Shown: one piece after another, positions 19,751 to 49,905 of the stretch
Position numbering within the stretch: position 1 is the first letter of the stretch
How the letters are laid out: every line of letters starts with the position of its first letter
Assembly: GCA_951799425.1 (NCBI GenBank)
Contig: OX637403.1
Coordinates: 30,110,811-30,174,810 of the forward strand
Origin: Ilex aquifolium
Taxonomy: Eukaryota; Streptophyta; Magnoliopsida; Aquifoliales; Aquifoliaceae
Direction: 5' to 3'
Length of the DNA: 64,000 nt
The notes under the pieces: generated by a model
What the model saw: only the letters and a program-made list of their open reading frames with translations
Told to the model about the DNA's origin: nothing
The model's database searches: none
Position numbers and translations under genes: made by a program

Positions 19751-20174
19751 TATTTAATATAACAGATAACAAACCAACTACTTTTACATTTCTCAATAAC
19801 AAATAACTCCACTAAAGCATACTTATCTCTCTCTTACATCTCTCTTATTTTTTTAATGTCCACTCTATTTTTAAAATACGTAATTAAAGATAAGAAAAAA
19901 AATAAATATCACAATCAATATTCAATTTTTAATATTATAAAATATATTTAAACACGAAATTATTGCTAGTTATTGAATATTGGGAATGTTAAAGATAGAA
20001 TCACACACTACTTTCACATGACGAAGACAAGAAGTCAATATATTTTTATCCCTCATGAATGCCTTTGATTGGATCGATGAGGAGATTAGTTGAAGTGCAC
20101 ATAAACTGGTCCAGACAGCCCTGATAGTTGAATAAAAAAAAAAAAAAGTAATACACCTATGACATTGCTGGAAG

Positions 20175-20706
20175 TAGGGGTGACAATCGTGTTGTATCGG
20201 ATGGTGTTTGTGTCGTGTCATTTCAGGTTTGTGTCGAGCACTAGTCAACCCTAACCAAGCCCGTTTAACTAATTATGTCGTGTCAACTTATTTATTTTCG
20301 AGTCGTATTCATATTGACTCATATAACCCGTGAATAAAAAATTTAACGCTCAATTTTTTGTCTAAATTTTATTATCACTTAATCGAACTTATGCTCATAT
20401 TTTTTTATAAACTAAAAATTAACTTAATAAATATAATAATAAAAATGAATAAAAATATCTTTTTTTTTGTACAAAAATTAGGTTACTATTTGATAAAATA
20501 TAACAAAAATTTGACATTTTATTCTTATAATACTACTTAAACATATTAATCGTGTCAATTTCAAATTCGAACCCAACTCATTTATTATTCGTATTAACGG
20601 GCGTGTCGTATAACGGTTCGTGTCGAGAAATAGTCAACTTTAACCCACTAATTTTATGTCGATTTCGAATCATATTTTCTTATTATGTTAGAAATTGTCA
20701 CCCCTA
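20175..20706. mobile_element. hAT-like MITE, unit I
   Basis: 532 bp with inverted ends TAGGGGTGACAAT and ATTGTCACCCCTA. The flanks GCTGGAAG and ACTAGAAC are a diverged 8-bp duplication; the unit III copy preserves GCTGG on its right. The interior is AT-rich without an ORF. Confidence 0.78.
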
Positions 20707-21585
20707 ACTAGAACCCTGAAATGCAACTTTTGGGTGGAATCATAAATTATAGTTTTTGAAGAAAATTGGAAATTTCAATTAGTGGCGGAGTTGATTAGCA
20801 AGGTGAATGAGGGAGATGGTGTTAGCTCTTGGCATAAGGAGAGTGGAAAGCAATACCATCAAAGAGGGAGAGAGGAAAGCAAAAATAACAAGGAGATACT
20901 TTGTTTGGATGCATATTTGAGTAATTTTGTATTTTCTGTCAATTACAGTGGTTAATTTAAAATTAAAGGGTAATTTTTTAAAATTAAAACTTAAGGGATT
21001 TAATTGCAACATGACCATAATTGGAGGCCTCAATGTGTAATTAATCCTCAAAAGAGTATACCTAACCGTAAATATCAAAATGCTCCTTGTAGATTGATGG
21101 ATAAGGTATTAATGATGATGGATTAATTATGGTTTCAATGGATTGTCAAAATTTAAATTCAAGTCATCTGAATTTACAGTTCGTCCTTATTATCACCGTA
21201 GTAGTAGGAATATTACACCAATCTAACACACCCATGGCCATTGGTGGCGAACACCAACGTCAATCATCCTTAAATCCCAGTTAAACAAATAGGTCATATG
21301 TCATCGTGTAGCCACCGCCTAACTGCCATCAATTGCCATCCATCAAGCAAAAGGAAAAATGAAAATAAGGACAGAAGAAGAATAAGCCCTTTGCCTATAA
21401 ACCAACCACCACCCAACCCAACCACCGCTGTTGGAAATGTAGATCCACACTGACCAACCAACCACCATTTTTGGAAATGTAGCGCCACACAATGACCACT
21501 CCCAACCTCGAGAAGAGCTCCAAAGTCCACACAAAATCCTCTCTAAATTCTATCAAAAATCCGACTAGAATTACATTGTAACTTG
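20707..21585. other. Unit I spacer without a recognised gene
   Basis: Repeated at 41486-42352 and 59404-60173. The minus strand has a 78-codon frame starting MDFGALLEVG that is nearly unchanged in all three units, but it has no recognisable domain, and recent duplication alone explains the conservation. Confidence 0.55.
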
Positions 21586-22347
21586 CAGTGTGTTTGGTAC
21601 GGTGGAAAAATGGGTGGAAGGAAAGTGAGGAAGGAAAATAGAAGGGAAGGAAAATGTTTCCATTGTTTGGTTTGAAATGAAAGTATGAGGGAGTGAAAAG
21701 TGGGAGGAAATCCTATCCTTCCAACCCACCAAATATTTTCAGCCCAAATTTGGGCGGAAAGTGGAGGAAAAAAGTGAAGGCAAGACAATAATTTTTTAAG
21801 TTGACCTTTTTACCCTTTACTTATTGGATATATTTCATTCCCAATTCCCACTTGAAGCTCACCACTCTTTTTTAATGTTATGATTATAGAGTTTAAATAT
21901 TATTTTTAGTTTTGTATCTTAATTTTTTTATCCAGGAAAATACATCAATGCGTAAATTCTTTTTATATTCTTATTTTTAATTAATGTCATTTTGACATTT
22001 TTTAATTAATAGTTAGAAATCATTCAAAACAAAATTAATTCCTCCAAAATTAATTCGTAACAAAAATAAGAGGATTAAAAGCTTTTTCAAATTAATTGGA
22101 TTGATTTGTAATAAAAAAATCACTAAATATATTTAAGGGTAGAATTATAAATTGGGCATATATGTTTTTTCTTTCCTTTCCTTTCAATTTTCATTCAATA
22201 CCAAACGGATGAAAAATATATCCCTTCTATTTTCCATCCCTCTTACCAAACAAAAAGGAGGAAAGCTTTCTTTCCTTCATGGATGGAAAGCTTATTCCTT
22301 TCACTTTTCTTTCTTCCTTCTTTCCATCCTTCGTACTAAACGGACCA
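21586..22347. mobile_element. MITE with GTTTGGTACG ends, unit I
   Basis: 762 bp, left end CAGTGTGTTTGGTACGG, right end imperfect inverse (CGTACTAAACGGACC), flanked by TTG (3 bp). Unit III has the undisturbed site AACTTGGGGTTC at about 60171-60180. The GGAAGGAAAG-rich interior is noncoding. Confidence 0.75.
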
Positions 22348-22421
22348 TTGGAGTTCAACCTATTCAACTCATAACTGTGGATAAAACACCACTTCCACCC
22401 AATCTTCGTCCCGATTCTATT

Positions 22422-22991
22422 AGATGAGTCCAGATTTAATTGGATCAAACTTAATTTATGAAATAAACCCAAATCAGCTAAAAGACAGGTCAAGTCCAGT
22501 TTATGGATGTGGCCCGATCTAAAGTTCAAAGGATTCAGGAAGATTAGCATACATGGAGAGTAACTACTGGGAGAACCACTCTCTCAAATCAAGACTATCC
22601 CTAATTGTGTCTATCCTAATTGTAGCTATCCTCCCCGAAAAGCTAGTAACCTACCTTTCATGCCACCGCCTCAACTAAGACTCTATACCTATAAATTGTA
22701 AGTCTTCTCCACAGGAGGGGCATCTCTCTACACACATTTTACACAATTACATCTCTCAGAGTCACGTATCCACACCTAGAGCTTATTTTTACTCATTTTC
22801 TACCACCTGCTATTTTATCAATAAAGTCCTCTGATCACCGTTACCGTCTTCAAAGTAGAGTAGGTCACACTGACCGAACCACTCTATATCTGTGTATTAC
22901 CTATATTAATCTCAACTTTATATTTACTGCATTTATTACCTATATGAATTACTCGACATGAGGTGCATAAATTCAATTTTGTGCATCATCA
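22422..22991 (+). mobile_element. Solo LTR, family 2, unit I
   Basis: 570 bp, flanked by CTATT (22417-22421 and 22992-22996). The start is AGATGAG, probably a mutated TGATGAG; the end is TTGTGCATCATCA. It contains TATA-like CTATAAATTG and AATAAAG. The last 19 bases (TCAATTTTGTGCATCATCA) match the end of the LTR next to the gypsy element at 56139, so the families are related. Confidence 0.78.
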
Positions 22992-24743
22992 CTATTGAAA
23001 TAGCTGCCCCTAATACCAGGTATAGATGTGCCCTAAATTCAATTTCACTTCGAATTAGTTTTGATTATCAATATTTTTAAACCTTCTCACAAGAGATCAT
23101 GAGATCAAGTAGAAGGTTTTTCAATCAAAATGAGGCATAATTCTTGCCATATTAAAGACTTAAAATTCTCCACATACCACTTAGCATTTTTCATCAATTT
23201 TCCTTGGGACTAAGTTAGATTACATTCGTTCCACACAAAAGAAAATATCATCCGACTCTGACCAAGTTTGTTACCCATTTTACGGGTAATGACAACACAG
23301 ATGAGAAAATTAAATTATGGGTTAATTATAAATGAGTATACAAAATTAAATTTAATTGTCACAAAATACACAGCTCTTAATGTTAAGTCATTAACTTTTT
23401 TTTTTTATTAACTCCTTATTTTTAGAACTTAATTGCGTCCAAGTACACAATTTATTTTTTTGTGATTTTCTTTTGATATATTTGTCCTGAAATATATATA
23501 TATATATCGATCATGAAAAATCTACACTGTAGCCTCTAGTGGATACCTTTTACATACGTCGTTGAATTATGATCTAATAGTCACCAAACACAGATGCTCA
23601 AAATTAATTGTCAAGACTTACCAAATTCATAACTAAATAGGAAATGTCTATGACTTATTAATTGTAATCTAGTCCTATATTTTTGGAGTGTGACTTTTAA
23701 CAAATCAATAAGTTTATTCTATTGTAATTTAGACTTTCCAGAATCAAGACACATAAACTCTTGATATGCACTGGTAAAATTATGTACATCTAACTCACTT
23801 CAGATCTTAAATTTTAGACTCTTATATATTAATTGTTCTCTTTAAAAAAATTGACAATATTTGATCAAAAAAAAAAAATTTGACAATAACAAGGCATTAT
23901 GGATGAATACAAAGTTTTCTTGTAAGACATTCCATGGACTCTATCATTGGTCTAAGAATCCACTATTTTATGCTTTTTTTTGGAGAACAGTGGGCAAACC
24001 ATTGAGCTCTCCTTTCGGAATCTTGATTCGGCTGGTGTCAAGATTCCAGGTGGGGCCCAATGTCGTCCCTAATAATTTATGAATCCAAATTCAATCTAAA
24101 TACTTTTTGGGCAATTTTATAATTAACCACTTTGTAAGAACTTTAATTTAATGTAATTATTGAATTGATTAAAAATTTTAATATTAAATAAAGCCCACAT
24201 TCAACTTAACAATTTTAAATAGAATTTTTCATATTTTTCTCTTTTATTTTTTTCTTGACGGATTATTCTTCACAATTAATGACTGAGGGTCTCACTTAAA
24301 TATATAATAGGTGATCCGTCTAAAAGAAAATAGAAGATAAAATATATTATAAATGATGTCACCTCATTTAATTTGTAAATTTTCTCTAGAAAAGAGGAGA
24401 GATTAAAGGGTGATTCAAATCATTTCTTGTTTTTTTTTTGGGTGGTTTAAAAAAAATCAATTTTTGGGATGTTGTATATATATATATATTTTTTTTTGTG
24501 TGTGATAGAGAACTTGTTTAAGGGACTATAGGGAATGTTGTATTGGCCTCAACCAGAGTAAAACCTGAATAAGTAATTAACTATCAATCATTGATATGAA
24601 TTGACATTTTTTTTATCGATAATTCGAACTTACATCTGATTTTGAACTTGTTATCTTATCTTATACACCTTATAATTTGATACCACCTCAAAAGACAAAA
24701 AAAGTAGTATGAAAGAGTGAGAATGGTGGTCATGAGAGCTAAA
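22992..24743. other. Region downstream of CuAO copy 2, unit I
   Basis: AT-rich and shared with 43752-46293 (unit II), the first part also with 60816-61475 (unit III). No gene recognised. Unit I has about 100 extra bases near 24380-24480 relative to unit II. Confidence 0.55.
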
Positions 24744-27700
24744 TCAAGAAGAACTAGCAGGCCTACAAACAGGCAGGTCCTTTTCGAAGTTGGGCATGGA
24801 ACGAAGGATTGGATTGCTTTGGAAAAAATTGACGGGCTTTAGAGCAAAGCTTGACGAAACTGTTGGCATCACGGGAAAGTCCTCCTGGCATGGTATGTGA
24901 TGAAATCCCAGTGTGTACCACAATACTATATCTGTGTTCTCAATTGGGCGATTCCTGTTTCATCAAACAAAAAGAAAAGAAAGTATAAAAAGTCAAATAT
25001 AAACAGTTTTACCTCTATATATATGGAGAAGTGCTAATGTGACTATGGGGCCTTCTTTACCTTTCAGACCATACAGCTAATGTATCTTCTCCCTTGCTTT
25101 GATATACCAAAAGGCCACCAGCCCACTGTTCGGTCCGGTTATATGGAGTCACCCATATCTATCACACAAAAAGGCAAATTTAGTGAGAATTTTGCAACTA
25201 AATTCCTAACACAATTAGTGTGTGAAAGCAAAATTGGAGCCTTTTCATCTAAAATATTGATTAGTAATGAACCGGTGACGTTTGTTTGCTCTTCCGCGTA
25301 AGATCTTCCAACCTACCATGACCATCAGTTGCCATCCATTTTCGTTCTCTACCCTGTTCGAGAAGGTGGATCAAAGAAAGGTAGTTTGCTTCTCTCTTGA
25401 ACTGATGATAGCATATGTAGTGGTTGGCCTTCCTACTAGAATGCCTGTGAGGATCCAACAGGGTCATGCTTACAAAATGGGCTTATCAGGCCATTTGTGA
25501 TGGACCCAAACCATGGCCCGTCCCATAATCTAGGATATGGGCAATGGCACGGGCTAAGCCAGCCCGTGTATTGTTTCTTATTAAATAATCAAACTATACC
25601 TTAATATTGTACTATAACTTAACATGACTTGTTACTCTAATTCATCAATTGTAATTTCACCATAAAATTTGAATTTTGGATGGGTTTTCAAACCGAGCGG
25701 GCCATGTAGCAGGCAAGATTACGGGTTGGCCCGTGAACTCGAACACTATCGTAGCCCGGATAGGGTGGGTTACATTTCTAGGCCGAGCTACGCACGACCT
25801 TTTTTTAGGGTTGTTTTTCAGCCCGCCACTAGCTAACCCGGCCTATGGATTGCCCTACCTACTAGGGTCATCCCAATTTATAAACAGACCATCAATAGAA
25901 TGATGTGAAATGTGCAATAAGATCACAAATCAACCAGCAAGAGAATCCAAAGAATGGTACCTGATGGTTTGTGAAAGCACTTCTGATTTGTGGAGGGTCA
26001 TTTAGATCAAGCAGACTAGCAGCAGTGCCACTAGGAACAACTTTGTACCCTGCCGGATTACCCAACCTAGACCGCCGCGAAGGGTTAACCAAATGAAATT
26101 CCGATGGATCATAGAGCTTGAGCTTAATTCGCGCATCCTCCTCCATCATAGCCACATGCCTCTTTGCCTTCAAGTAGCTCTTCCTAGGTGACTCGCCCGG
26201 CAAAGTCTCTTCCTTCACAAGATTCACCTCGACAAACGAATTGTTGGGGCCATCGATGTCCATGTCGAGGTGGAAGGTAATGAAGTGATCGTGAACTACA
26301 CCGATGGCATTTTCCAATACAAGAGAACCTGATATCTCTTTGTTGACAGGAACTTGATACACATTTTCGTATGGTGTTCCTTTCACCATTAGCATTCCAG
26401 ACAGCCCTACCTGTTTGGAGGTAATACATTTTAGCTGTCCAAGTCTAGTAAACATTCATCACAGCAGTGTTATCATCGACACATAATATCATCATCTATT
26501 AATAAAAATTACCTTGACGGAGATCAAACCATCAGTTTGAAATTCCCAGTCGAATATGTAGTCATAGTTTCCAACTGATGCTGCCATTTGAGCCACAAGC
26601 GTCACCTTCGGCCTCGATTCTCTTATCTACGCCAAATTTAAGATCAAAATCATAGTTTGGATTTATAATTTGTTTGCTAATGTTCAAGGCAAAGCCCAAG
26701 TATATGAACCGGTCATTCAACTCATACACCATTTAAATTAGGACTTGTGTTAATTAATCATATTAATTAGCATGATTCCCTTCTGAATTGGAGGAAAAAA
26801 CTCCAAATGCAAATCAGGATATATGAGTCCATTGTAAAGCTAGGGTTGTGTAAATAAGCCAATTTAGAGATGTTAATACGGGCAATTTGAGTTAGGTCAT
26901 GATCAAGCTCAAAAAACACTAGTTTACCCGGGAACAAGGATTGTTTCACTAGGTGGTACATGGGTGACCCGGTACATGAGTCTCTCTTCATGTTAAAGTA
27001 CGAAAAGGAACAAATAAATGTAGAAAGATTGAAGAAATTCAAGCATACCTCGAAACCATTTACAGGGAGTTCGGAGTGCCTCCAGCCAATATCCCCGGCA
27101 TAGCGCTCGAAAATGCAAATCATGTTGGACTGAACAAAAGCCTTCCCATCAGCAGCAACAAAAAGCCCATCCATATAGTATGAGTACCTAGGACAATCAT
27201 TGAGTGGCACAAGTGGCATGGCTGTCACACCTAGCCCATACTCCCCTGCATCCACGTATGTTCTGAAGTACCAAGATTCATCTATGTCCATATATGGCAC
27301 AAATAATTCTGAAGCAAAACCTTTGTACATCACACTCCTTAGCTCTCCGGTCACCGAGTCCCGTACCATGGCCCGGGAAATTATCATTCCGGCTCGTTGG
27401 TCGGGCTTGATGTGAAACAACCAGTTGGCCCATTTCACCATATGCCCATCTTCCACTCGAAAGCTCGGACCGTTGGGCTGCTCTATTGAAATTGGATTGA
27501 GTGGCTCCATTTCCATAGGCTTGTCTTGTGCCATGTACTGATAATCCGTGTTGGTAGCTTTTGGAACCGGTATTCCTCGGCCCGTATCGGATATTTTCAC
27601 CACCTCTCGCTTATCGATGTCCACGGTCACGGTGAGCCCCTCAATAGGCCTCATGTAGAAATTTGGTGTGCCTTGGCTAGAGTAACATTGGACCTTTATG

Positions 27701-28347
27701 ATCCTTTTTCCTTCCTCATTAGGCCCATACCACCCTGCCGAAGGTGGGATGCAAGATAAATCCGAATACGCAACTTCTCGTGCCATGATTGATTTATTGA
27801 CCTCTTCATTGGACAATGTCACCTGTAAAGCAACCGAAATGTCGTCCATGGATAAGGCCGGATAGCCCGAACCGGGATTGTTGTCATGGCTAATGACCCG
27901 GCCCAAACCCAAGTCCACGGTGAGAACATAAGTTTGGCCATTCAATAGCGCAATCACAGACGCTCTTCTAGGGGGAAGAGGATCACCTTTTATCCATTCC
28001 AAAACCTGGGATTTATCGGGTTCATCCAGAGATAGAGAGTGGATGGTTGGGAAGGTCCATGAGAAGGGTGCATAGGCGGAGAGGATGGCTCGAACTTTAT
28101 TGATTTCTGGTATGGTTAGTGGATCTAGAGCGTGCAGAGGGGTGTCTGTTGGGAGGTTCTTGGGCTGTGAAACTTGGGTCTCTAGGACTGAGCCTAACTG
28201 GGTCCTTCGGTTCTTGGAGGTGCACCAAGGGGTGGACTTGGTGCAGCCGAATAGTCCCGGTTTGCTTGGAGTATACCATGTACGTGCAAAAATGAAAAGG
28301 GCTATGGAGAGGATGACCGACAGGCGAAGACATGAAATGGTTTTCAT
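24744..28347 (-). CDS. Copper amine oxidase copy 2, complete five-exon gene
   Basis: Topaquinone-dependent copper amine oxidase, predicted 723 residues. Exons are 28347-27049, 26626-26513, 26410-25961, 25158-25061 and 24954-24744 (TGA). The fourth intron interrupts a codon after two bases and restores SERNRPIEN. Exon 1 starts MKTISC with a secretory signal peptide and encodes the N2 and N3 domains plus the first part of the catalytic domain (YVDAGEYG). Exon 2 has the cofactor motif VGNYDY, exon 3 the HDH copper ligands, exon 4 [15 protein letters not shown], and exon 5 [16 protein letters not shown] with the third copper His. The C-terminus is CRPASSS with no peroxisomal SKL-type signal. It differs from copies 1 and 3 beside the cofactor (VAQMAAS rather than VARMAAS) and at the exon 3 end (TNHQ). 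A perfect CT run of about 30 bp lies just upstream of the ATG, and no retroposon is present there. Confidence 0.95.
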
Positions 28348-28349
28348 GG

Positions 28350-28350
<1 letters not shown>

Positions 28351-28381
<31 letters not shown>
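28351..28381. repeat. CT/GA microsatellite in CuAO copy 2 leader
   Basis: Pure CT dinucleotide run ending three bases from the start codon on the plus strand, which reads GA on the gene strand. Copies 1 and 3 have shorter or interrupted runs (3001-3014 and about 49871-49895), so leader length differs among the three genes. Confidence 0.85.
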
Positions 28382-28384: not shown

Positions 28385-28460
28385 AGTGGCCACTGATACT
28401 TTAGTCGGTGGGGGCATAATATGTTTGATATTTAATAAGAAAAAGGCCAATGATCTAGAA

Positions 28461-31400
28461 AATTACAACATTAGTGGCAAGTTTACGACTGTAGTGAATA
28501 AAATTACAACATTAGTGAAAATTTTACAACAGTAGTGGACAAAATTACCATAATAGTAGAAAAAATTACAACATCAGTGAAAAATTTACAATAATAGTGG
28601 ACAAAATTACAAAATCAATGGACAATTTACTACAATAAAGGGCACAATTACTACAATAGTGGACAAACTTTTACTATCATTTGAAGTATCAAAACTATAT
28701 TTTGTGAGTTTGTGATCGATCACTAGTATTGACTGATCAATCAGTGAAAAAATTACAACATCAGTGGAAAAATTTACAACAATAGTGGACAAATTTACAA
28801 CATCAATAGAAAATTTACAACATCAATGAAAAAATTACAACATCAGTGGAAAAATTTACAACAATAGTGGACAAATTTACAACATCAATGGAAAATTTAC
28901 AACATCAGTGAAAAATTTACAACAGCAGTGGGTAAATTACAACATCAATGAAAAATTTACAACATCAGTGGGTAAATTACAACAGTAGTGGGCAAACTTT
29001 AATCAATATGGTGGTAAAAGTACGATTGACACTTTTAACCACATTTATTGTAAATACAACATTAGTGCATCCCACTGATGTTGTAAATTTATCTTTAAGT
29101 TTGTATTATTATCAACGGTTCTCATAATATTAACCAAAATGAAAATAAAATTTGTCTATATACTAATAATCTTAACCACAATCATTCTAATCTTACAACA
29201 ATAGTGGAAAAATTACCACAGCAGTGGACAAAATTACAACATCAATAAAAAATTTATAACATTAGTGATAAATTTACAACAATAGTGCAAATATTACATA
29301 ATCATTGTATTAAACCCTGAATTATAGTAAATTTTTCCTTTGATTTCATAACTTTTTCCCAATTGTGGTAAATTTATTCACCATGGTTTTAACTTAACCT
29401 ATTTTTGTCGTAAAATTTACTCTTAATCCTCGTAATGTTACCTATAATTATTATAATATTAACCAAAATAATGGTAATATTAATCAGAACAGTCATAAAT
29501 TAACCTCTAAACATGTAAATTTATCCACAATTGTTGTAAACTTACCCTCAAAAGTGGTAAATATGCCATTAATTGTGGTAAATTGCCCACACTTTTACTA
29601 AATCTCACTCTAGTAACCTTGTGATCGATCATAGACAATTGTGATCGATCCCAAACTTACAGTTTTTCAAAAAAATTAAGTCAATGATATTTGTGATCGA
29701 TCCTAAATAGTTGGGATCGATCACAAACATTCTTTTAACAATGGTAATATTAATCAGAACAGTCGTAAATTAACCTCTAAACTTGTAAATTTACCCACAA
29801 TTGTTGTAAACTTACCCTCAAAGGTGGTAAATATGCCATTAATTGTGGTAAATTGCCCACACTTTTACTAAATCTCACTCTAGTAACCTTGTGATCGATC
29901 CCAAACTTACAGTTTTTCAAAAAAAGTAAGTCAAGGATATTTGTGATCGATCCTAAATAGTTGGGATCGATCACAAACATTCTTTTAACATTTTAAGGTA
30001 TATTCTAAACTTTTGCGATAGATCATAATCTATTGGGATAGATCACAAAAAATATAGTACAATAATCTATCACAAAAACATAGGATTGGTCACAATTTTT
30101 CTTCTTAGAAAAAAAAGGGAGAATTACACCCAGATCCCTTGAGGTTGGTCACTTAATCACTCAGACTCCCTGACATTGAAAATATTATATACAGACTCCC
30201 TGAAGTTTGTACACGCATAATAAATCTGTTAATAAATTACACCCAGACCCCTTGAAGTTTGTAAACATATATTACTTAGACCCCTTAAGTTTAAAATGTT
30301 ATACTTAGACCAAAAATACTTCAATCAATGATAAAATACTATATGATCGATTACAATCTCTCAGAAAACCACTTTTGGGAGAGACTACCGTAACATTGTG
30401 ATAGATCTCAAGTTCTTGTGATAGATCATAAACATTCATAAAATTTAATTTCACCAATTAAAAATTTCGTCAATTCAAAATAAAATTTAAAATTTAACAA
30501 CAAATAAACATTCAATTTCATCAATTCAAAATTCACTTTCACTCAAATTAATATTAAATTCACCTTCAATTTTATTTATTAAAATTTAATTTCATAAGAT
30601 TAATACCAACTTGACCGCCAATTTTACTAAATAAACATTAATTTAGTAACCAAATTTCGTCAATAGACTAAAATCAAGTTATTTTTTACTTATTAAAATT
30701 TTAATACGTAAAAACTAAATTTTCATCAATTTGAATCGAATTTTAATTAGTACGAATTTTAAGAAGTAAAAAAATACAAATTCAATCGACTCGAATCGAA
30801 TTTTAATTAGTTCTAGGCGCTAGTAGCTTAGGTTGAGCTCAAAATTTTAATCAACTCGAATCTGAATTTTAATCGACTCAAATTTTAATATGTAGAAAAA
30901 CGAAATTTAATCAACTTGAATTTTAATATGTGGAAAAATATTTTTTGGTATTTTAACATTATATAGTAATTTTATATTAATTTGATGGACTGTATATTAA
31001 TTTCTTATTAATTTGATGAATTTAATGTTTATTGGATGATATTGGATATTAATTTGATGAATTAAATCTTAATTATTTAAAATTGAATATTAATTTGATA
31101 CATTGAATGCTAATTGTTTAAGTAGATAAATTGAATGTTAATTGAATTAATTTATGTGTTAATTTGATGTCAATTGGATGAATTGAATGTTCATTAGATA
31201 ATTTTGTAGTTTAATTTCATGAATTGAGTGTTAATGGGATGAATTTAAATATAATTTGGATGGATTAAATGTTACTTTGGTTTTAATTTGATGAATTGAA
31301 TATTAATTGAGTGAATTTGGATATTAATATGATGAATTTGATGTTAGTCAGTTGAATTTGAATGTTAATTTAATAAATTGAATATTAATTAAATTATTTT

Positions 31401-34400
31401 TTATGTTAATTAAATAAAATTGACTATTAGTTGGGTTAAATATGTCCCCGATAATATTAGTGATTGAATATTTATTGGGTGAATTTGGATGTTAATTTGA
31501 TGACTTGATTGCTAATTAGAGGAGTTTAAATATAAATTGGATGAATAGAAAGTTAATTTGACGAATTGAATATTAATTGGATGAAACAAAATGTTAATTT
31601 GATATAAATTTGGTGGATTGAATATTAATTAGGTAAACTTGAATTGGATGAATTTTGATGTTAATTTGATATAAATTAAATGTTAATTCGAAGAATTTGA
31701 ATTTTGATTTGATGAATTGAATGATATTTGGATCGAAAATACCATCGTTAGTAATAATATTACAATGATTTGGGTGAATTTACCATGATTTAAGGTGATT
31801 TAACACTATTTAAATTTAGTATTAATTTGATGAAATTGAATTTTAATAAGTAAAATTGAAGGTGAATTTGATGAAATTGAATTTTGACATGGTAAAATTT
31901 ATGGTCAATTTGGTGTTAATTTAATTAAATTGGATTTTAATAAATAAAGTCAACAGTGAATTTAATATTAATTTGATGAAATTAAATTTTGAATTGATGA
32001 TATCTAATGTTAATTTAGTGTTGATTTAATGGATTGGATAAAATTGAATATTAAATTCATAAAATTTTCTATTAATTTGATAAAATTGGTTGTCTGTATG
32101 GTGTTATATTTCTGAAACTATAAATAAATTAAATTGAAGCTAATTTATTTTTAATTTGATGCAATTTAATTGTAATTTGATGAAATCAAGTGTTAATTTG
32201 TTGTTTAAATTTAAATTTTGAAATTTCAATGTTAATTTGATAAAATTGACAGAAAGTTTGGTTTTATTTGGATGAAATTGAGTTTTAATAAATAAAATTT
32301 AAGGTGAATTTATTATTAATCTGGTGAATATGAATTTTAAATTGATGCAATTGAATGTTAATTTGGGGTTAATATGATGAATTGGTTGAAAATAAACATT
32401 AAATTCATTAATTTTATTCGGAATATATTTTTAGAATAAATATTATTATATTTTAGAATATATCAAAATTATTATTCAGAATATATCGAAATTATTATTA
32501 TTTTTTTATCTCTAAAATATTTGCGATCTATCCTAAGATCTTGTGATCTATCACAAGATAGTAGTTGTCTCTCCCAAAACTTTTTGAAACACAGTAAATT
32601 TGTGATCGATCACAAATTTATATGATCGATCACAAGTCACTAGAGTGAAATTTAGTAAAATTGTGGACAATTTACCCCAATTAAGGACAGGTTTATAACG
32701 TCAGTAAAAAATTTACAACAAGAGTGAACAAAATTACAACTTCAATGGACAATTTACTACAACAGTGGACAAATTTTAACCACCATTTGAAGTACCATCA
32801 CAAAAATCAGTGGGTTTGTGATCGATCAGTAATATTGACTGATCGATCAAGTAGTTGTACATTGAGGGTAAAATTACAACATTAATGAAAAATTACAATA
32901 TTAATGAAAAATTTACAAAATTAGTGGGCATAGTAATATCCAATGTTCTTGTAATATTAACACTAAAATACCCATAAATGTTGTAAACAAAATTTCATAA
33001 ATATATCCACAATTCTAATACTTTTTTCCATTGGTGTTGTAAATATGACATTTATTATAGTATCGTAAACTTACCCATATATGTCATTAATATTACCAAA
33101 ATAGTAGTAAATGGTCCTCTAAAATTGTAAATATGTCTACAAATTTAGTACGCTTACTCACAACAGTGGTAAATTTGCCCTTAATTGGGGTAAACGGACC
33201 CTCACATGTGATAAATCTACACTTAATTGTGGTAAATTAATACGATTTTGGTAAATCTTACCACAACAATGATAATATTATCCTTAAAAATATTAAATCT
33301 AACCAATATGGTGTTGTACATTACCAAAATTAGGTGAGGAAACCCCATTTGGTGAAGACTACAGTAACTTTGTGAAAGATCTCAAATTCTTGCGATAGAT
33401 CGCAAACATTCATAAAATTTAATTTCATCAATTCAAAATTTAGCCAATTCAAAATAAAATTTAAAATTTAACAACAAGTAAACATTCAATTTCATCAATT
33501 CAAAATTCATGAATTTAATGTTTACTTTCATACAATTGAGATTCAATTCATTAAATTAACCTTAAATTAATATTTAATTTTATTAATTGAAAATTCAATT
33601 TCATCAAATTAACACCCAGTTCACCTTCAATTTTATTTATTAAAATTCAATTTCATCAAATTATCACCAAATTGACCGTCAATTTTACCAAATTAACAAT
33701 GAAATTCTTAAATTTGAAATTATCACCAAATTGACCGTCACTCTTTCAAATTTATATTTAAACATCGCTAGATAAAATTATCACTTGATATTAATTTGAT
33801 GAAATTTAATTTTAATAAGTGGTGTTAATTTAATGAAATTAGATTTTAATAAATAAAGTTGACAGCGATCTATCACAATTATTATTTTTGGGAATATATC
33901 GCAATTATTATTATTTTTTAGAATATATCAAAATTATTATTTTTTTTATCTTCAAAATATTTGCAATCTATCATAAGATTTTGTGATCTATCGAAAGATT
34001 GAAGTAGTTTCCCCCAAAACTTTTTGAAAAACAGTAAGTTTGTGATCGATCACAAATGTGTATGAGTGAGATTTAGCAAAATTATGGGCAGTTTACCACA
34101 ATTAATGGCAAATTTACCACCTTTGAGGGTCAATTTACAACAATTATGAATTAATTTACAAGTTTTGAGGTTAATTTACGACTGTTCCGATTAATATTAC
34201 GACTCAATGTGCAACTACTTGATCGATCGATCAATATTAGTGATCGATCACAAACCACAAAATATAGTTATGTTACCTCAAATGGTGATAAAAGTTTGCC
34301 ACTATTGTATTAATTTTGTCCATTACTGTAACAAATTGTCCATTGATGTTGTAATTTTGTCTACTATTGTTGTAAATTTTTCACTAATGTTATAATTTTT

Positions 34401-37400
34401 ACCACTATTGTGGTAATTTTGCCCACTGCTCTTGTAAATTTTTCATTAATGTTGTAACAGAACAATCATAAATTAACCTCAAAACTTGTAAATTTATCCA
34501 TAATTGTTGTAAATTGACCCCTCAAAAGTGGTAAATATGCCCTTAATTGTGGTAAATTGCCCACAATTTTGCTAAATCTCACTCTATTGACTTGTGATCG
34601 ATCACAAACTTATTGTTTTTAAAAAAGTTTTGGGGGAGACTACTTCAACCTTGCGATAGATCACAAGATCTTATGATAGATTGTAAATATTTTGAAGATA
34701 AAAAAAAAAATAATTTTGATATATTCCGAATAATAATTTCGATATATTCTAAAAAATAATAATAATTGCGATATATTCCAAAAAAATAATTGGGATAGAT
34801 CGCAAAATTCATTTTCACCAAATTAATAAAAAAATCACCTTTAATTTTATTTATAAACTTTGATTTCATAAAATTAACACCAAATTGACCGTCTATTTTA
34901 TGAAATAAACATTAAAATTCATGAATTTAATGACTGTTAAATTTATCAAATTAACATTGAAATTCCAAATTTTAAAATTTAATTTCATCCAAATAAACAC
35001 CAAATTAACATTCGATGAAATTAAATTTTAAATTTGATTTCTACCTTTAAGCTTCCAAATTTGAACGAGGAAAACCACTTCCAAATTTCTACCTATAAGC
35101 TTCCAAATTTAAATTCATAAAATCATCGCCAAAGTAATGCAATTTCATAAAATTTATATCAAATTAACATCAAAATTCATCAAATTCAAGTTCACCTAAT
35201 TAATATTCAATCCACCAAATTTATACCAAATTAACATTTAGTTTCATTCAATTAATATTCAATTCGTCAAATTAACTTTCAATTCATCCAATTTATATTT
35301 AAACTCCTCTAATAAACAATCAATTCATCAAATTAATATCTAAATTCACTCAATAAATTCAATTACTAAAGTTATCGGGACATATTTAACCCACAATCAC
35401 TAATAGTCAATTTTACTTAATTAACATTCAATTTATTAAATTAAAATTAAAATTATTTAATTAACATTCAATTTAGTAAATTAACATTCAAATTCAACTC
35501 ACTACCATCAAATTCATCATATTAACATTCAAATTCACTCAATTAATATTCAACTCATCAAATTAAAACCAAATTAACATTTAATCCATCTAAATTATAT
35601 TTAAATTCATCCCATTAACACTCAATTCATGAAATTAAACTACAAAATTATCTAATAAACATTCAATTCGTCAAATTAACATTCAATTCATCCAATTGAC
35701 ATCAAATTAATACACAAATTAATTCAATTAACATTCAATTTATTAACTTAACAATAAATTATCACTTACCTTCATCAAGTTAACATTCAATCTCGTTCAA
35801 TTAATATTCAATTCATCAAATTTGACTAGTTCTCATTAATTTCATCAGATCAACATCCAAATTAATCCGATTAATATTCAATTCATCAAATTAACATAAA
35901 TTTAACATTTAAATAATTCAATTTATATTTAATTCGTACAATTAATATTCATTGTCATCCAATTAGCCTTCAATGTATCAAATTAATATTCAATTTTAAA
36001 TAATTAAGATTTAATTCATCAAATTAATATCCAATATCATCCAATAAACATTAAATTCATCAAATTAATAAGAAATCAATATACAGTCCATCAAATTAAT
36101 ATAAAATTACTATTTAATGTTAAAATACCAAAAAATATTTTTCTACATATTAAAATTCAAGTTGATTAAATTTCGTTATTCTACATATTAAAATTTGAGT
36201 CGATTAAAATTCAGATTCTAGTTGATTAAAATTTTGAGCTCAACCTAAGCTACTAGCGCCTAGAACTAATTAAAATTCGATTCGAGTCGATTGAATTTGT
36301 ATTTTTTTATTTCTTAAAATTCGTACTAATTAAAATTCGATTCAAATTGATGAAAATTTAGTTTTTACGTATTAAAATTTTAATAAGTAAAAAATAACTT
36401 GATTTTAGTCTATTGACGAAATTTGGTTACTAAATTAATGTTTATTTAGTAAAATTGGCGGTCAAGTTGGTATTAATCTTATGAAATTAAATTTTAATAA
36501 ATAAAATTGAAGGTGAATTTAATATTAATTTGAGTGAAAGTGAATTTTGAATTGATGAAATTGAATGTTTATTTGTTGTTAAATTTTAAATTTTATTTTG
36601 AATTGACTAAATTTTTAATTGGTGAAATTAAATTTTATGAATGTTTATGATCTATCACAAGAACTTGATATCTATCACAATGTTACGGTAGTCTCTCCCA
36701 AAAGTGGTTTTCTGAGAGATTGTAATCGATCATATAATATTTTATCATTGATTGAAGTATTTTTGGTCGAAGTATAACATTTTAAACTTAAGGAGTCTAA
36801 GTAATATATGTTTATAAACTTCAATGGGTCTGGGTGTAATTTATTAACGGATATATTATGCGCGTACAAACTTCAGGGGGTCTATGTGTAATATTTCAAA
36901 TGTTAGGGGGTCTGAGTGATTAAGTGACTAACCTTAAGGGGTCTGGGTGTAATTCTTCCTTTTTTTTCTAAGAAGAAAAATTGCGATCGATCCTATGTTT
37001 TTGTGATAGATCATTGTACTATATTTTTTGTGATCTATCCCAATAGATTATGATCTATCGCAAAGGTTTAGAATATACCTTAAAATGTTAAAAGAATGTT
37101 TGTGATCGATCCCAACTATTTAGGATCGATCACAAATATCCTTGACTTAATTTTTTTGAAAAACTGTAAGTTTGGGATCGATCACAATTGTCTATGATCG
37201 ATCACAAGGTTACTAGAGTGAGATTTAGTAAAAGTGTAGGCAATTTACCACAATTAATGGCAAATTTACCACCTTTGAGAGTAAGTTTACAACAATTGTG
37301 GGTAAATTTACAAGTTTAGAGGTTAATTTACGACTGTTCTAATTAATATTACCATTATTTTGGTTAATATTATAACAATTCTGGGTAACATTACGAGGAT

Positions 37401-38327
37401 TAAAAGTAAATTTTACTATAAAAAGAGGTTAAGTTAAAACTATGGTGAATAAATTTACCACAATTGGGAAAAGGTTATGACATCAAAGAGAAAATTTACT
37501 ATAATTCAGGGTTTAATACAATGATTATGTAATATTTTCACTATTGTTGTAAACTTCTCACTAATGTTATAAATTTTTTATTGATGTTGTAATTTTGTTC
37601 ACTGTTGTGGTAATTTTTCCACTATTGTTGTAAGATTAGAATGATTGTGATTAAGGTTATTAGTATATAGACAAATTTTATTTTCATTTTGGTTAATATT
37701 ATGAGAACCGTTGATAATAATACAAACTTAAAGATAAATTTACAACATCAGTGAGATGCACTAATGTTGTATTTACAACAAATGTGGTTAAAAGTGTCAA
37801 TCGTATTTTTACCACTATATTGATTAAAGTTTGCCCACTATTGTTGTAATTTATCCACTGCTGTTGTAAATTTTTCACTGATGTTGTAAATTTTCCATTG
37901 ATGTTGTAAATTTGCCCACTATTGTTGTAAATTTTTCCACTGATGTTGTAATTTTTTCATTGATGTTTTAAATTTTCCATTGATGTTGTAAATTTATCCA
38001 CTATTGTTGTAAATTTTTTCACTGATGTTGTAATTTTTTCACTGATCGATCAGTCAATACTAGTGATCGATCACAAACCCACAAAATATAGTTTTGGTAC
38101 TTCAAATGGTAGTAAAAGTTTGTCCACTATTATAGTAATTGTGCCCATTCTTGTAGTAAATTGTCCATTGATTTTGTAATTTTACCCACTATTGTTGTAA
38201 ATTTTTCACTGATGTTGTAATTTTTTCCACTATTATGGTAATTTTGTCCACTACTGTTGTAAAATTTTCACTAATGTTGTAATTTTGTTCACTACAGTCG
38301 TAAACGTCCCACTAATGTTGTAATTTT
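28461..38327. repeat. Giant ORF-less inverted repeat (foldback-like element), unit II
   Basis: Left arm about 28461-31740 and right arm about 35060-38327 are reverse complements; the first 280 bases of each arm, read side by side, agree at well over 90 percent. Landmarks pair at 29160/37680, 30830/36240 and 31560/35240. The 3.3-kb centre holds further inverted and direct copies (e.g. 32440-32640 with 34560-34800). The arms are built from degenerate units of the ACAACATCAGTGG kind, long TTAATTTGATGAATTGAA-type tracts, and repeated GATCGATC palindromes. No reading frame over about 75 codons exists. Absent from units I and III. Target duplication not resolved, so the class (long-TIR MULE, foldback or other) is open. 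Confidence 0.85.
32601..32614. repeat. Palindrome TGTGATCGATCACA in foldback centre
   Basis: Perfect 14-bp palindrome; identical copies at 34041-34054 and 34593-34606. Single-change variants recur at 28712, 29630, 29690, 29890, 32820, 34240, 37100 and 38065, often in pairs about 20-40 bp apart. Confidence 0.8.
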
Positions 38328-38615
38328 GCCCTCCATTGACTTAATGACAGCTTTTCGGTACCGTAGTCTGGTCCGTAATTTGGGGGATGAGTTACCCTAG
38401 AAAAAAAGGGTTGTAGAGGACGAATGTAATCCTTATCAAATTTTTTGTCTCAAATGATGTCACGCGCAACTTTCACAATCACAAACTGAGTTTTTTTAAT
38501 ATTTAGTAATGAATTATGCCGACATACAAGATAAGTGAGTTCCATTAATATTCAGTCATAGAACTTATACCACATGATGAAAAATTTGATAAACATAACT
38601 TAATCTTTTGGCAAT
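38328..38615. other. Unit II flank right of the giant inverted repeat
   Basis: Matches part of the CuAO upstream flank of the other units (compare 3530-3720). No gene. Confidence 0.5.
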
Positions 38616-40387: not shown

Positions 40388-40950
40388 ACTCACATATTTA
40401 ATATAGAACAATTCTACGGGTCCCAATATTTATTGACACTCATTAATTATTCAATAATAGTGATTATTAAATTTGATTTTTAAATCTAATTTTTAAATTC
40501 ATGTAGTATTACTTTTAAATATAACAGATAGCAAACCAACTACTAGTATTACATTTCTCAATAACAAATAACTCCACTAAAACATATATATCTCTCTCTT
40601 TTCTCACCCTTACATCTCTCTTATTTTTTTAATGTCCACTCTATTTTTAAATTATGTAATTAAAGATAAGAAAAAAAATAAATATCACAATCAATATTCA
40701 ATTTTTAATATTATAAAATGTATTTAAACACAAAATTATTGCTAGTTATTGAATATTGGGGATGTTAAAGATAGAATCACATGACTACTTTCACGTGATG
40801 AAGACAAGAAGTCAATATATTTTTATCCCTCGTGAATGCCTTTGATCGGATTGTGAAAGAGATTAGTTGAAGTGCACGTAAATTGGCCTAAACAACCCTG
40901 ACCGTTGAATTAAAAAAATAAAAGTAATACACCTATGACATTGCTGGAAG
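39973..40950. other. Unit II spacer between relic B and the hAT-like MITE
   Basis: AT-rich, no gene. Contains a near-palindrome GTCTCAATAAATATTGAGAC (about 40031-40050) present in all units, the poly-C tract, and about 110 bp near 40405-40515 not found in the other units, close to the Helitron insertion site of units I and III. Confidence 0.5.
40347..40380. repeat. Poly-C homopolymer, unit II
   Basis: About 34 consecutive C in the context equivalent to the unit I tract. Confidence 0.8.
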
Positions 40951-41485
40951 TAGGCGTAACAATCGTGATGTATCGGATGATGTTCGTGTCATATCATTTC
41001 AAGTTTGTATCGAGCACTAGTCAATCCTAATCAAACATGTTTAACTAATTATGTCGTGTCGGCTTATTTATTTTCGAGTCGTATTCATGTTGACTCATAT
41101 AACCCGTCAATAAAAAATTTAACGCTCAATTTTTTGTCTAAAATTTTATTATCACTTAATCGAATTTATGCTCATATTTTTTTATAAACTAAAAATTAAC
41201 TTAATAAATATAATAATAATAATGAGTGAAAATATCTTCTTTTTTTGTACAAGAATTAGGTTACTACTTGATAAAATATAATAAAAATTTGACATTTTAT
41301 TCTTATAATACTACTTAAACATATTCATCGTGCCAATTTCAAACACTAACCCAACCCATTTATTATTCGTATTAACGGGTCATGTCATATACAGGTTCGT
41401 GTCGAGAAATAGTCAACCTTAACCCACTAATTTTATGTCGATTCTGAATCATATTTTCTTATTATGTTAGAAATTGTCACCCCTA
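40951..41485. mobile_element. hAT-like MITE, unit II
   Basis: Same insertion as 20175-20706, with ends TAGGCGTAACAAT and ATTGTCACCCCTA. Confidence 0.75.
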
Positions 41486-42352
41486 ACTAAAACCCTAAAA
41501 TGCAACTTTTGGGTGGAATCATAAATTATAGTTTTTGAAGAAAATTGGAAATTTCGATCAGTGGCGGAGTTGATTAGCAAGGTGATGGCATTGATAGTGA
41601 AGGAGGGAGATGGTGTTAGCTCTTGGCATAAGGAGAGTGGAAAGCAATACCATCAAAGAGGGAGAGAGGAAAGCAAAAATAACAAGGAGATACTTTGTTT
41701 GGATGCATATTTGAGTAATTTTGTATTTTCTGTCAATTACAGTGGGTAATTTAAAATTAAAGGGTAATTTTTTAAAATTAAAAATTAAGGGAGTTAATTG
41801 CAACATGACCATAATTGGAGGCCTCAATATGTAATTAATCCTCAAAAGATTATACCTAACGGTAAATATCAAAGATGCTCCTTGTAGATTGATGGATAAG
41901 GTATTAATGATGGATAAATTCTGGTTTCAATAGATTGTCAAAATTTAAACTCAAATCATCTGAATTTACAATTCGTCCCTATTATTATCGTAACACACCC
42001 ATGGCCATTGGTCGCGAACACCAACGTCAATCATCCTTAAATCCCAATTAAACAAATAGGTCATATGTCATCGTGTAGCCACCGCCTAACTGCCATCAAT
42101 TGCCACCCATCAAGCAAAAGGAAAAATGAAAATAAGGACAGAAGAAGAATAAGCCCTTTGCCTATAAACCAACCACCACCCAACCCAACCACCGCTGTTG
42201 GAAATGTAGATCCACACTGACCAACCAACCACCATTTTTGGAAATGTAGCGCCACACAATGACCACTCCCAACCTCGAGAAGAGCTCCAAAGTCCACACA
42301 AAATCCTCTCTAAATTCTATCAAAAATCCGACTAGAATTACATTGTAACTTG

Positions 42353-43105
42353 CAGTGTGTTTGGTACGGTGGAAAAATGGGTGGAAGGAAAGTGAGGAAG
42401 GAAAATAGAAGGGAAGGAAAATGTTTCCATTGTTTGGTATCAAATGAAAGTATGAGGGAGTGAAAAGTGGGAGGAAATCCTATCCTTCCAGCCCACCAAA
42501 TATTTTCAGCCCAAATTTGGGCGGAAAGTGGAGGAAAAAAGTGAAGGCAAGACAATAATTTTTTAAGTTGACCTTTTTACCTTTTACTTATTGGATATAT
42601 TTCATTCTCAATTCCCACTTGAAGCTCACCACTCTTTTTTAATGTTATGATTATAGAGTTTAAATATTATTTTTAGTTTTGTATCTTAATTTTTTTATCC
42701 AGGAAAATGCACCAATGCGTAAATTCTTTTTATATTCTTATTTTTAATTAATGTCATTTTGAAATTTTTTAATTAATAGTTAGAAATCATTCAAAACAAA
42801 ATTAATTCCTCCAAAATTAATTGGTAACAATAATAAGGGGATTAAAAGCTTTTTCAAATTAATTGGATTGATTTGTAATAAAAAATTCACTTAATATATT
42901 CAAGGGTAGAATTATAAATTGGGCATATATGTTTTTCCTTTCAATTTTCATCCAATACCAAACGGATGGAAAATATATCCCTTCTATTTTCCATCTCTCC
43001 TACCAAACAAAAAAGAGGAAAACTTTCTTTACTTCATGGATGGAAAACTTATTCCTTTCACTTTTTCTTCCTTCCTTCTTTCCATCATTCGTACCAAATG
43101 GAACA
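42353..43105. mobile_element. MITE with GTTTGGTACG ends, unit II
   Basis: 753 bp copy of the same insertion; the right end here is better preserved (CGTACCAAATGGAACA) and is followed by TTG. Confidence 0.75.
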
Positions 43106-43179
43106 TTGGGGTTCAACCTATTCAACACATAACTGTGGATAAAACACCACTTCCACCCAATCTTCGTCCCGATTCTATT

Positions 43180-43751
43180 AGATGAGTCCAGATTTAATTG
43201 GATCAAGCTTAATTAATGAAATAAACCCAAATCAGTTAAAAGACAGGTCAAGTCCAGTTTATGGATGTGGCCCGATCTAAAGTTCAAAGGATTCAGGAAG
43301 ATTAGCATACATGGAGAGTAATTACCGGGAGAACCACTCTCCCAAATCAAGACTATCTCTCATTGTGTCTATCCTAGTTGTAGCTATCCTCCCCGAAAAG
43401 CTAGTAACCTACCTTTAACGCCACCGCTTCAACTAAGGCTCTATACCTATAAATTGTAAGTCTTCTCCACATGAGGGGCATCTCTCTACACACATTTTAC
43501 ACAATTACATTTCTCAGAGTCACGTATCTACACCTAGAACTTATTTTTACTCATTTTCTACCACCTGCTATTTTATCAAAAAAGTCCTCCGGACCACCAT
43601 TACCTCCTTCAAAGTAGAGTAGGTCATACTGACCTAACCACTCTATACCTGTGTGTTACCTATATTGATCTCAACTTTATATTTACTGCATTTATTACCT
43701 ATATGAATTACTCGACATGAGGTGCATAAATTCAATTTTTGTGCATCATCA
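43180..43751 (+). mobile_element. Solo LTR, family 2, unit II
   Basis: Same insertion as 22422-22991, with the same CTATT duplication and the same mutated first base. Confidence 0.78.
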
Positions 43752-44687
43752 CTATTGAAATGGCTGCCCCTAATACCAGGTATAGATGTGCCCTAAATTC
43801 AATTTCACTTCGAATTAGTTTCGATTATCAATATTTTTAAACCTTCTCACAAGAGATCATGAGATCAAGTAGAAGGTTTTTCAATCAAAATGAGGCATAA
43901 TTCTTGCCATATTAAAGACTTAAAATTCTCCACATACCACTTAGCATTTTTCATCAATTTTCCTTGGGACTAAGTTAGATTACATTCGTTCCACACGAAA
44001 GAAAATATCATCCGACTCTGACCAAGTTTGTTACCCATTTTACGGGTAATGACAACACAGATGAGAAAATTAAATTATGGGTTAATTATAAATGAGTATA
44101 CAAAATTAAATTTAATTGTCACAAAATACACAGCTCTTAATGTTAAGTCATTAACTTTTTTTTTTATTAACTCCTTATTTTTAGAACTTAATTGCGTCCA
44201 AGTACACAATTTATTTTTTTGTGATTTTCTTTTGATATATATCGATCGATCATGAAAAATCTACACCGTAGTCTCTAGTGGGTACCTTTTACATGCGTCG
44301 TTGAATTATGATCTAATAGTCACCAAACACAGATGCTCAAAATTAATTGTCAAGACTTACCAAATTCATAACTAAATAGGAAATGTCTATGACTTATTAA
44401 TTGTAATCTAGTCCTATATTTTTGGAGTGTGACTTTTAACAAATCAATAAGTTTATTCTATTGTAATTTAGACTTTTCAGAATCAAGACACATAAACTCT
44501 TTATATGCACTGGTAAAATTATGTACATCTAACTCACTTCAGATCTTAAATTTCAGACTCTCATATATTAATTGCTCTCTTTAAAAAAATTGACAATATT
44601 TGATCAAAAAAAAAAATTGACAATAACAAGGCATTATGGATGAATACAAAGTTTTCTTGTAAGACATTCCATGGACTCTACCATTGG

Positions 44688-45571
44688 AAGCAATCTTAAA
44701 CAAAAGTTTTTTTGAGTTGGAAAAGTAATATTATATGGAATAAATTACATATATGACCTTTAAACTATGATCTTTATGTCAATAAGCTCTTAATTTTTTT
44801 TTATCAATTAAGCTCATGAATTCTCTAATTGTGTCAATTAAGCCTTTATGTCTACCTCCGTTAGAATGTGTCACTCACGTGATTATATGATACAAAAAGA
44901 CAAAATGACTAAATTGACATAATTAAAAAATTCAAAAGCTTAATTGACAAAAAAAAAAATTAAGGGCTTAATTGATATAAAGGTCATAATTTAAGAATTA
45001 TATGTGTTGTTTATTTTATTATTATTATATAAAAAAGTTTAAGAACAAAATTGAAGAAAAAATTAGAGAGCAAAGTAGACATGGATACCTATTGTGAGGA
45101 CAAAAGCCAAACTTTTCTAAGGTGGGTTGTGACATGGAAAATCTCATGAGTGGGGGCTGCTGCAGACTGCATAACATCCACTTGTAGATGTGTCACATCG
45201 CAACTTTCCTTTATAAATCAAACCCGATTGTTTTGGGTGTGTGTTATTTAAATATCTTCACTTGCACTTTCCCTTTAAGGGATTGTGTAAGTGTTGTGTT
45301 CAAAAAAATTAAAAAAACTCTTCGGGGCACATTATGCCGGCGTTTCGGTGTTGGACTGGAATTCCACACATTGGGCCAAAGGCCCTGTGGTAATGGTAAT
45401 CCACCGGGGTGTCGGGGGACTGGGCAATCCCACATTGGGATTGCTTTGGGTGTGTGTGTTATTTAAATATCTTCACTTGCACTTCCCTTTTAAGGGGTTG
45501 TGTAAATGTTGTGTTCAAAAAAATATACATAGATAAAGTTTCACTATAATCCAAATGGCAAAAGTATTTCA
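44688..45571. mobile_element. Composite insertion, unit II
   Basis: 884 bp absent from unit I, flanked by CTACCATTGG (44678-44687) and CTATCATTGG (45572-45581). The left part (about 44745-45010) is an inverted-repeat MITE with arms of about 100 bp around GTCAATTAAGC. The right part holds two SINE-like bodies in direct order (about 45220-45310 and 45310-45530), each with a GGTGTGTGT run, a CCTTTTAAGG-type block and a short A-tail. Confidence 0.6.
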
Positions 45572-49200: not shown

Positions 49201-49869
49201 AGAGTAACATTGGACCTTTATGATCCTTTTTCCTTCCTCATTAGGCCCATACCACCCTGCCGAAAGTGTGATGCAAGATAAATCCGAATACGCAACTCCT
49301 CGTGCCATGATTGATTTATTGACCTCTTCATTGGACAATGTCACCTGTAAAGCAACCGAAATGTCGTCCATGGATAAGATCGGATAGCCCGAACCGGGAT
49401 TGTTGTCATGGCTAATGACCCGGCCCAAACCCAAGTCCACGGTGAGAACATGAGTTTGGCCATTCAATAGCGCAATCACAGACGCTCTTCTAGGGGGAAG
49501 AGGGTCACCTTTTATCCATTCCAAAACCCGGGACTTATCGGGTTCATCCAGAGATAGAGAATGGATTGTTGGGAAGGTCCATGAGAAGGGTGCATAGACG
49601 GAGAGGATGGCTCGAACTTTCTTGATTTCTGGTATGGTTAGTGGATTTAGAGGGTGCAGAGGGGTGTCTGTTGGGAGGTTCTTGGGCTGTGAAACTTGGG
49701 TCTCTAGGACTGAGCCTAACTGGGTCCTTCGGTTCTTGGAGGTGCACCAAGGGGTGGACTTGGTGCAGCCGAATAGTCCCGGTTTGCTTGGAGTACCCCA
49801 TGGACGCGCAAAAATGAAAAGGGCTATGGAGAGGATGACAGACAGGCGAAGACATGAAATGGTTTCCAT
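46294..49869 (-). CDS. Copper amine oxidase copy 3, complete five-exon gene
   Basis: Third tandem copper amine oxidase, 723 residues from the conserved METISC start. Exons are 49869-48571, 48155-48042, 47939-47490, 46708-46611 and 46504-46294, with the same lengths and phases as copy 2. The NYDY cofactor site, HDH and GFHH copper ligands, acidic second metal site and signal peptide are all intact. It is closer to copy 1 than to copy 2: same VARMAAS, same AFTNNQ, and the same retroposon upstream. An ATG at 49923, inside that retroposon, is in frame through the CT-rich leader and would add 18 charged residues (MIKEKKVASLERERKRET) ahead of the signal peptide. I prefer the 49869 start because all three copies share it and it places the signal peptide at the N-terminus. 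Confidence 0.95.
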
Positions 49870-49905
49870 GGTCTCTCTCTTTCTCTCTCTCTCTAGAGAG
49901 GCCAC

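Follow-up and report, generated by a model that had tools for sequence, protein, structure and literature searches.

What is a near-complete palindrome doing in front of an amine oxidase gene, and can it be named? The question is raised by a 64-kb stretch of DNA from Ilex aquifolium (OX637403.1; here called the window), whose plant origin was inferred from its genes and elements. The window holds three copies, ~96% alike, of a copper amine oxidase gene (self-comparison; Pfam on the unit-II frames), and next to the copy in unit II, positions 28459-38327 form a near-complete palindrome without long frames. The original prediction could match it to no element family and ranked it as the best candidate for something undescribed. 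We find that it is one damaged copy of a sizeable dispersed, apparently gene-less foldback family, not a unique undescribed locus. By its structure and duplications, it is classified as a non-autonomous foldback transposon.

Structure, ends and insertion site

In a 2368-bp alignment the outer arms, 28459-31116 and 35960-38327, differ by 86 substitutions (3.6%; 96.4% identity) and two gaps, of 40 and 250 bp, and they extend inward as 31117-31677 and 35151-35752 (557 bp aligned, 31 substitutions, 6 indels, ~94%). Each arm totals ~3.2 kb, close to the ~3.3 kb predicted; the left arm is at 28459-31677 (+) and the right arm, its inverted copy, at 35151-38327 (-). Symmetry is weaker further in (e.g., 32222-32866 with 34203-34919), where blocks are mostly 74-93% alike. 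The centre (31750-35150, by self-comparison) contains partial arm modules in alternating orientation and is partly palindromic itself, as the claim of inverted sub-copies had it.

Modules were labelled U, P, M, R, X, A, S, and B, names that are this analysis's own. Along the left arm they run U1-P1-U2-M-R-P2-P3-X-P4-A-S-B (arm alignment and module comparison). The left terminal U array (28459-29300, +; Tandem Repeats Finder [TRF], autocorrelation, wedge-model curvature) consists of 20/21-bp repeats of AATTTACAACATCAGTGGAAA type, and the right one occupies 37500-38327 (-; TRF, periodicity tests, wedge-model curvature). Paired GATCGATC / GATAGATC sites, 20 bp apart inside a pair and 52 bp from pair to pair, lie at 29615-30100 (+; site counts, autocorrelation). 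The B array (30971-31750, +; autocorrelation, TRF), of AATTGAATATTAATTTGATG type and unlike U in sequence, has lags of 20-21 bp. The predicted density of palindromes is evident: GATCGATC occurs 24 times in the element and once in the remaining 54 kb (100 shuffles: mean 0.02, maximum 1), and with up to one mismatch there are 42 element sites (30 shuffles: mean 1.6, maximum 4). The predicted lack of a coding frame also agrees with what we see. Sixty stop-to-stop frames of at least 40 aa overlap the element, the longest internal one being 88 aa, and Pfam gave no match for the five frames submitted (four inside, one spanning the left boundary). Rfam gave zero matches in the window.

The ends were placed by comparison with sister copies. 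These, and the sister subfamilies, terminate in GGACCAG[A/G]CTAC or close variants, and exact 9-bp target duplications were found at 12 of the 17 loci with both ends in hand (11 insertions). The window copy spans 28459-38374: its right subterminal box and terminus (GGACCAGACTACGGTACC...GTCAATGGAGGGC read inward; 38328-38374, -) carry the terminus GGACCAGACTACGG common to sister copies, so the right end lies beyond the predicted 38327, while the predicted left boundary at 28461 holds to within a few bases but marks a truncation. Immediately outside lies GTAATTTGG (38375-38383, +), presumably the right copy of the target duplication, its 9-bp length being borrowed from sister loci. A single GTAATTTGG stands at the uninterrupted homologous site in unit I (3526-3534, +; unit comparison). 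Units I and III are contiguous across the insertion site. The left tip and ~360 bp of host DNA are gone, the left duplication copy having been lost with the left terminus. A target duplication at the apparent arm ends (28459/38327) was considered, with a best match of 8/11, and was dropped because sister copies place the true termini further out. Since only unit II holds the element, as had been predicted, arrival after the duplication is the simplest reading; the alternative half of that prediction, formation in place, is disfavoured by the dispersed relatives.

A dispersed family and its affinities

We searched the window's own assembly (800 Mb, 103 contigs). The left arm has at least 403 matching pieces, a lower bound because 33 of 7131 first-look candidates were scored; those listed represent about 29 places on 14 contigs by our own count, likewise a minimum. 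Twelve arm-homologous copies at 11 loci were fetched. Most have in common the module order U1-P1-U2-M-R-P2-P3-P4-A-S-B, and several repeat it inverted at the opposite end; C6a, C8b, and C13a show more rearrangement, only parts of C8a and C4a are present, and C17a is without a left tip. Allowing up to three mismatches, a 29-base subterminal pattern gives 161 matches in the genome (reversed control, 0). One identical version of this box stands at 42 of 100 places among the matches listed, which suggests recent spread. Loci L029-L034 carry a 78-bp box at both ends (91-97%), and they, Y1-Y3, L059, and L060 are foldbacks with differing arms. Family copies range from ~0.9 to 12-15 kb, with varied targets, and the longest contains a nested long interspersed nuclear element (LINE).

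The foldback (FB-like) assignment follows from long, internally repetitive inverted termini that make up most of the element, and from dispersed copies with target duplications, of which the window copy keeps the right one only. The duplications are ~9 bp long. The FARE foldback elements of Arabidopsis, attributed to Windsor and Waddell 2000, are reported to have long palindromic repeats at both ends. The likeness to FARE lies in the long palindromic ends, by description and not by sequence, and no transposase-bearing copy was found here. FARE is now classed with Mutator-like elements (MULEs), for which a 9-nt target duplication is typical (PMC4486113), and one FARE element holds a MULE-domain transposase (PMC3169594). 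MuTAnT, a foldback MULE family of Medicago, has modular foldback terminal inverted repeats (TIRs), G-rich termini, 9-nt target duplications, and non-autonomous copies, as here; it differs in measuring ~0.2-1.6 kb and targeting TA repeats, whereas the present family reaches 12-15 kb, has varied targets, and carries helix-phased arrays (PMC4486113). Tetris of Drosophila virilis is likewise non-autonomous, with long modular TIRs, internal tandem repeats, and no apparent coding, but its repeats are ~220 bp and the excerpt mentions no helical pitch (PMC4079207). The locus does fit an element kind: its structure is like that reported for FARE1 and MuTAnT, and from structure and duplications we regard it as probably Mutator-like.

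The two arms of individual copies have left a partial record of their history. The X segment (30100-30335, +; 36741-36976, -) occupies equivalent positions in the two arms of the window copy, is likewise in both arms of C17a, and is not at that junction in C17b, C18a, and C4a. An arm tree joins the two window arms as sisters (92/85, below the starred level), with C8a and C17a nearest to them, and groups the arms of C17b and C17c by side. In the lineage of the window copy and C17a, both arms may descend from one X-bearing arm. Arm homogenization as a general rule was rejected, since in five of the six two-armed copies at least one arm resembles an arm of some other copy more than it does the other arm of its own copy.

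The outer window arms show no indel of 10 bp or less among their 86 substitutions, and the inner part shows 4 per 31. Ten duplicated comparison stretches, some of them overlapping, have 52 small indels per 522 substitutions without the gene and 56 per 630 with it. Across the duplication that produced C17b and C17c, the element has 26 small indels per 396 substitutions and the flank 22 per 143. Scarcity of indels was not used as proof of selection on spacing, given the inner-arm count and the indel-poor C17b/C17c element. That duplication is of interest in itself: on C17, 20525500-20541500 and 20625500-20644500 (L013-L016) hold one foldback insertion duplicated ~100 kb apart, flanks and 9-bp duplication included, and the second copy acquired a LINE-type insert, so that the pair is a natural clock for arm evolution.

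Several copies contain other sequences. Nested retrotransposon inserts were recognized by Pfam from a reverse transcriptase frame in C17c and a Gypsy polyprotein in Y1, and L033 has a retroviral-type protease frame. The centres of C16a (L011:5632-6670) and L061:3-1204 have a protein-like frame in common (62% over 58 aa); it has no Pfam match and matches weakly (E 0.001) a frame beside the C17c reverse transcriptase. The frame may derive from a captured gene or a retroelement remnant, or may encode a protein of the element itself. Inside the foldback element L060, neighbouring 500-bp stretches at ~6000-7000 have just 13% and 6% G+C. On C1, six subterminal boxes, all pointing one way and ~812 bp apart, lie at 46349073-46353162; the element may have given rise here to a satellite-like array.

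A local helical pitch common to differing modules

The arms had been described as degenerate short repeats. These are present, but they are not random. In the window element, identical bases recur at ~11, 20-21, 31-32, 41, 52, 62, 72, 82, 92, 103, and 113 bp, and the dominant autocorrelation period is 10.40 bp with an amplitude of 0.94; in five controls of equal size from the window, nothing above 0.12 is seen at 10.0-10.7 bp. The 20-21-bp lag is seen separately in the U, paired-site, B, and centre modules, and lags of 52 and 72 bp, odd numbers of helix turns, also occur in the paired sites and B; in X, A, and S the pitch is not clear. AA/TT dinucleotides in 200-bp windows peak at 10.4 bp (3.84, versus 1.06-1.33 in three controls). 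Several modules of differing sequence have one local pitch in common.

The pitch recurs across the family. We tested nine of the 12 copies (C17c, C8a, and C4a were left out), and in all nine the top period is 10.25-10.45 bp. In the left flanks the value over this range does not exceed 0.16, apart from the C8b flank (0.42), which holds another copy. Among eight sister-subfamily stretches, five have a top period of 10.3-10.65 bp. Across 22 element stretches, 309 successive GATCGATC-type spacings are 60 bp or less: 131 are 20 bp, 70 are 21 bp, and only 2 each are 19 and 22 bp, the next commonest being 52 bp (29) and 29 bp (13), in a sample where related copies and paired arms are not independent. 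The GATCGATC pairs hold 20-21 bp while their flanks differ between subfamilies. Overall, the arms look like phased protein-binding arrays, and the spacing suggests landing sites for a DNA-binding protein. A literature search with GATCGATCAC gave no transposon paper by title among the matches listed, and one on helical phasing of transposon ends gave none on foldbacks by title; we claim no wider absence from print.

Two further properties of the arrays were considered as general features. The terminal U arrays are predicted to be strongly curved, at 107 and 112 degrees per 125 bp versus shuffle means of 57 and 50 (wedge model), but curvature common to all arrays was rejected, as the B arrays and the centre are without strong predicted curvature. 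Paired GATCGATC sites as conserved hairpins were also rejected: the three pairs tried fold well, and complementarity between paired sites is inconsistent across pairs.

Functions of the arms, rival explanations and surroundings

The account that best explains these features, to which as a whole we give a probability of roughly 0.7, is as follows. The element would have landed upstream of the amine oxidase gene of unit II, duplicating 9 bp of target, and a later deletion would have taken the left tip of the window copy along with ~360 bp of host DNA. Movement would probably be in trans, by a Mutator-like transposase with its gene elsewhere that recognizes both the GGACCAG-type terminus and the conserved subterminal box. 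Each kilobase arm would be a multivalent landing array whose short sites recur locally in register with the 10.4-bp helix turn. Sites in step with the helix put neighbouring bound proteins on one face, which could favour cooperative assembly, and the arrays could help to bring the two element ends together. Galileo of Drosophila offers an analogy for arms that bind protein. Its long TIRs are internally repetitive, their tandem repeats contain transposase binding sites, and the longest occur in copies without transposase (PMC3688188, PMC3573991). Galileo differs in belonging to the P superfamily and in having copies bounded by 7-bp sequences (PMC3573991), and is likened here by structure only.

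Several observations weigh against this account. No transposase turned up among the frames listed from the copies read, part of which went through Pfam, nor in the 8-kb elements L059 and L060 or the middle 4 kb of a possible 11-kb element at C8:11.42 Mb (L061). Among the 150 of 1566 PF10551 candidates scored, none is within 30 kb of listed element ends, and among 150 of 916 PF03108 candidates two lie ~20 and ~27 kb away, outside elements (positions compared by eye). The superfamily therefore rests on duplication length and structure. With regard to pitch, three of the eight sister-subfamily stretches peak at 6.75-6.80 bp, with the 10.25-10.45-bp component also strong, and of two stretches outside elements one (L034) also has a 21-bp signal. 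The site flanks show no consistent excess of hairpin or dyad complementarity over shuffles. Finally, in a strict Fourier test the U arrays and 32640-33330 alone beat shuffles; B, P, and the whole element do not. The register is therefore local, with no long-range register shown across the element, and this limits to local arrays a further proposal, somewhat unlikely as it stands, that the arms are scaffolds. On this view a local 10.4-bp step would be maintained in several repeat types unrelated in sequence, and in GATCGATC pairs two turns apart, even as their sequence changes from subfamily to subfamily. They would let a transposase or anti-silencing factor form one-faced arrays, and what is conserved in the arms would be spacing and not sequence.

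The strongest rival, doubtful but to be taken seriously, is that the pitch is a mere relic of array birth, by slippage from one 20-21-bp unit, with no present function. The U and B units have AATT anchors in common (by eye) and could share ancestry, and the pitch is local only. Moreover, the C17b/C17c element has fewer indels than its flank though nothing shows that the copies still move, so low indel rates need not mean selection. Yet half-unit lags of 52, 72, 93, and 113 bp in P and B fit a 10.4-bp base and not one 20.5-bp unit, and the GATCGATC pairs stay at 20-21 bp despite flank change between subfamilies.

It is unlikely that the arrays are mainly anti-silencing devices, bound by a factor that removes methylation and keeps the element and its relatives mobile, as VANC does on the tandem motifs of VANDAL MULEs in Arabidopsis. 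The resemblance is that of dense, short noncoding motifs that turn over by tandem repetition and diverge by subfamily (PMC5735166, PMC10398659). In addition, the central CpG of GATCGATC is mostly intact in the 22 element stretches, with 402 exact sites versus 50 single CpG-decay forms, plus 147 GATAGATC/GATCTATC. However, the motifs differ: of the known VANC21 and VANC6 motifs the element has at most one occurrence each (YAGTATTAY, 0; AGTTGTAC, 1; AGTTGTCC, 0). CpG outside GATCGATC sites is kept no better than in flanks (observed/expected 0.60 and 0.45 versus 0.61), and VANDALs, in contrast to this element, have degenerate TIRs (PMC10398659).

Less likely again is that the locus acts chiefly as a source of giant hairpin RNA, yielding 21-24-nt small interfering RNA (siRNA) and silencing the adjacent amine oxidase. 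Such a hairpin could form from its 46 perfectly complementary stretches of 21 bp or more (2143 bases in all, longest 297), the arms have 1292 exact 21-mers in common, and the left boundary is 112 bp from the first ATG of the unit-II frame. Hairpin potential, however, comes with any foldback. No arm 21-mer occurs elsewhere in the window, so only cis effects would be possible there, and silencing of the neighbouring amine oxidase genes in trans is without sequence support.

Long palindromes are prone to local inverted duplication, template switching, and assembly artefact, but such an origin is very improbable here, given dispersed relatives with common module order, termini, and, at many loci, 9-bp duplications, and outer arms that differ by substitutions where raw long-read error would be indel-rich.

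The host locus is an array of copper amine oxidase tandem units (1-3014, 25343-28364, 46893-50206; also 19742-23950, 40507-44687, and 58394-61472, the last a further partial spacer copy; self-comparison, Pfam). The N-terminal frame of the unit-II gene is at 26767-28347 (-; PF01179, PF02727, PF02728). Elsewhere in the window, Helitron frames occur at 6641-10661 (-), with PIF1-like helicase and Helitron_like_N domains in frame 7471-9579, and long terminal repeat (LTR) retrotransposon frames at 54018-55980 (-), with a Retrotrans_gag match in frame 55191-55868 (all Pfam). A 300-bp segment at 44726-45027 is 74% self-complementary and without foldback-family termini; it is perhaps a miniature inverted-repeat transposable element (MITE).

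A striking palindrome beside a gene can thus be accounted for by mobile DNA of a known kind, its insertion and later deletion being read from paralogous empty sites. For specialists, the surprising part may be the common local helical pitch and the site pairs two turns apart. Why foldback transposons have kilobase-long repetitive arms is an old question, and in this genome the pitch and the spacing of sites recur in several subfamilies whose arm sequences differ, making phase versus sequence directly testable.
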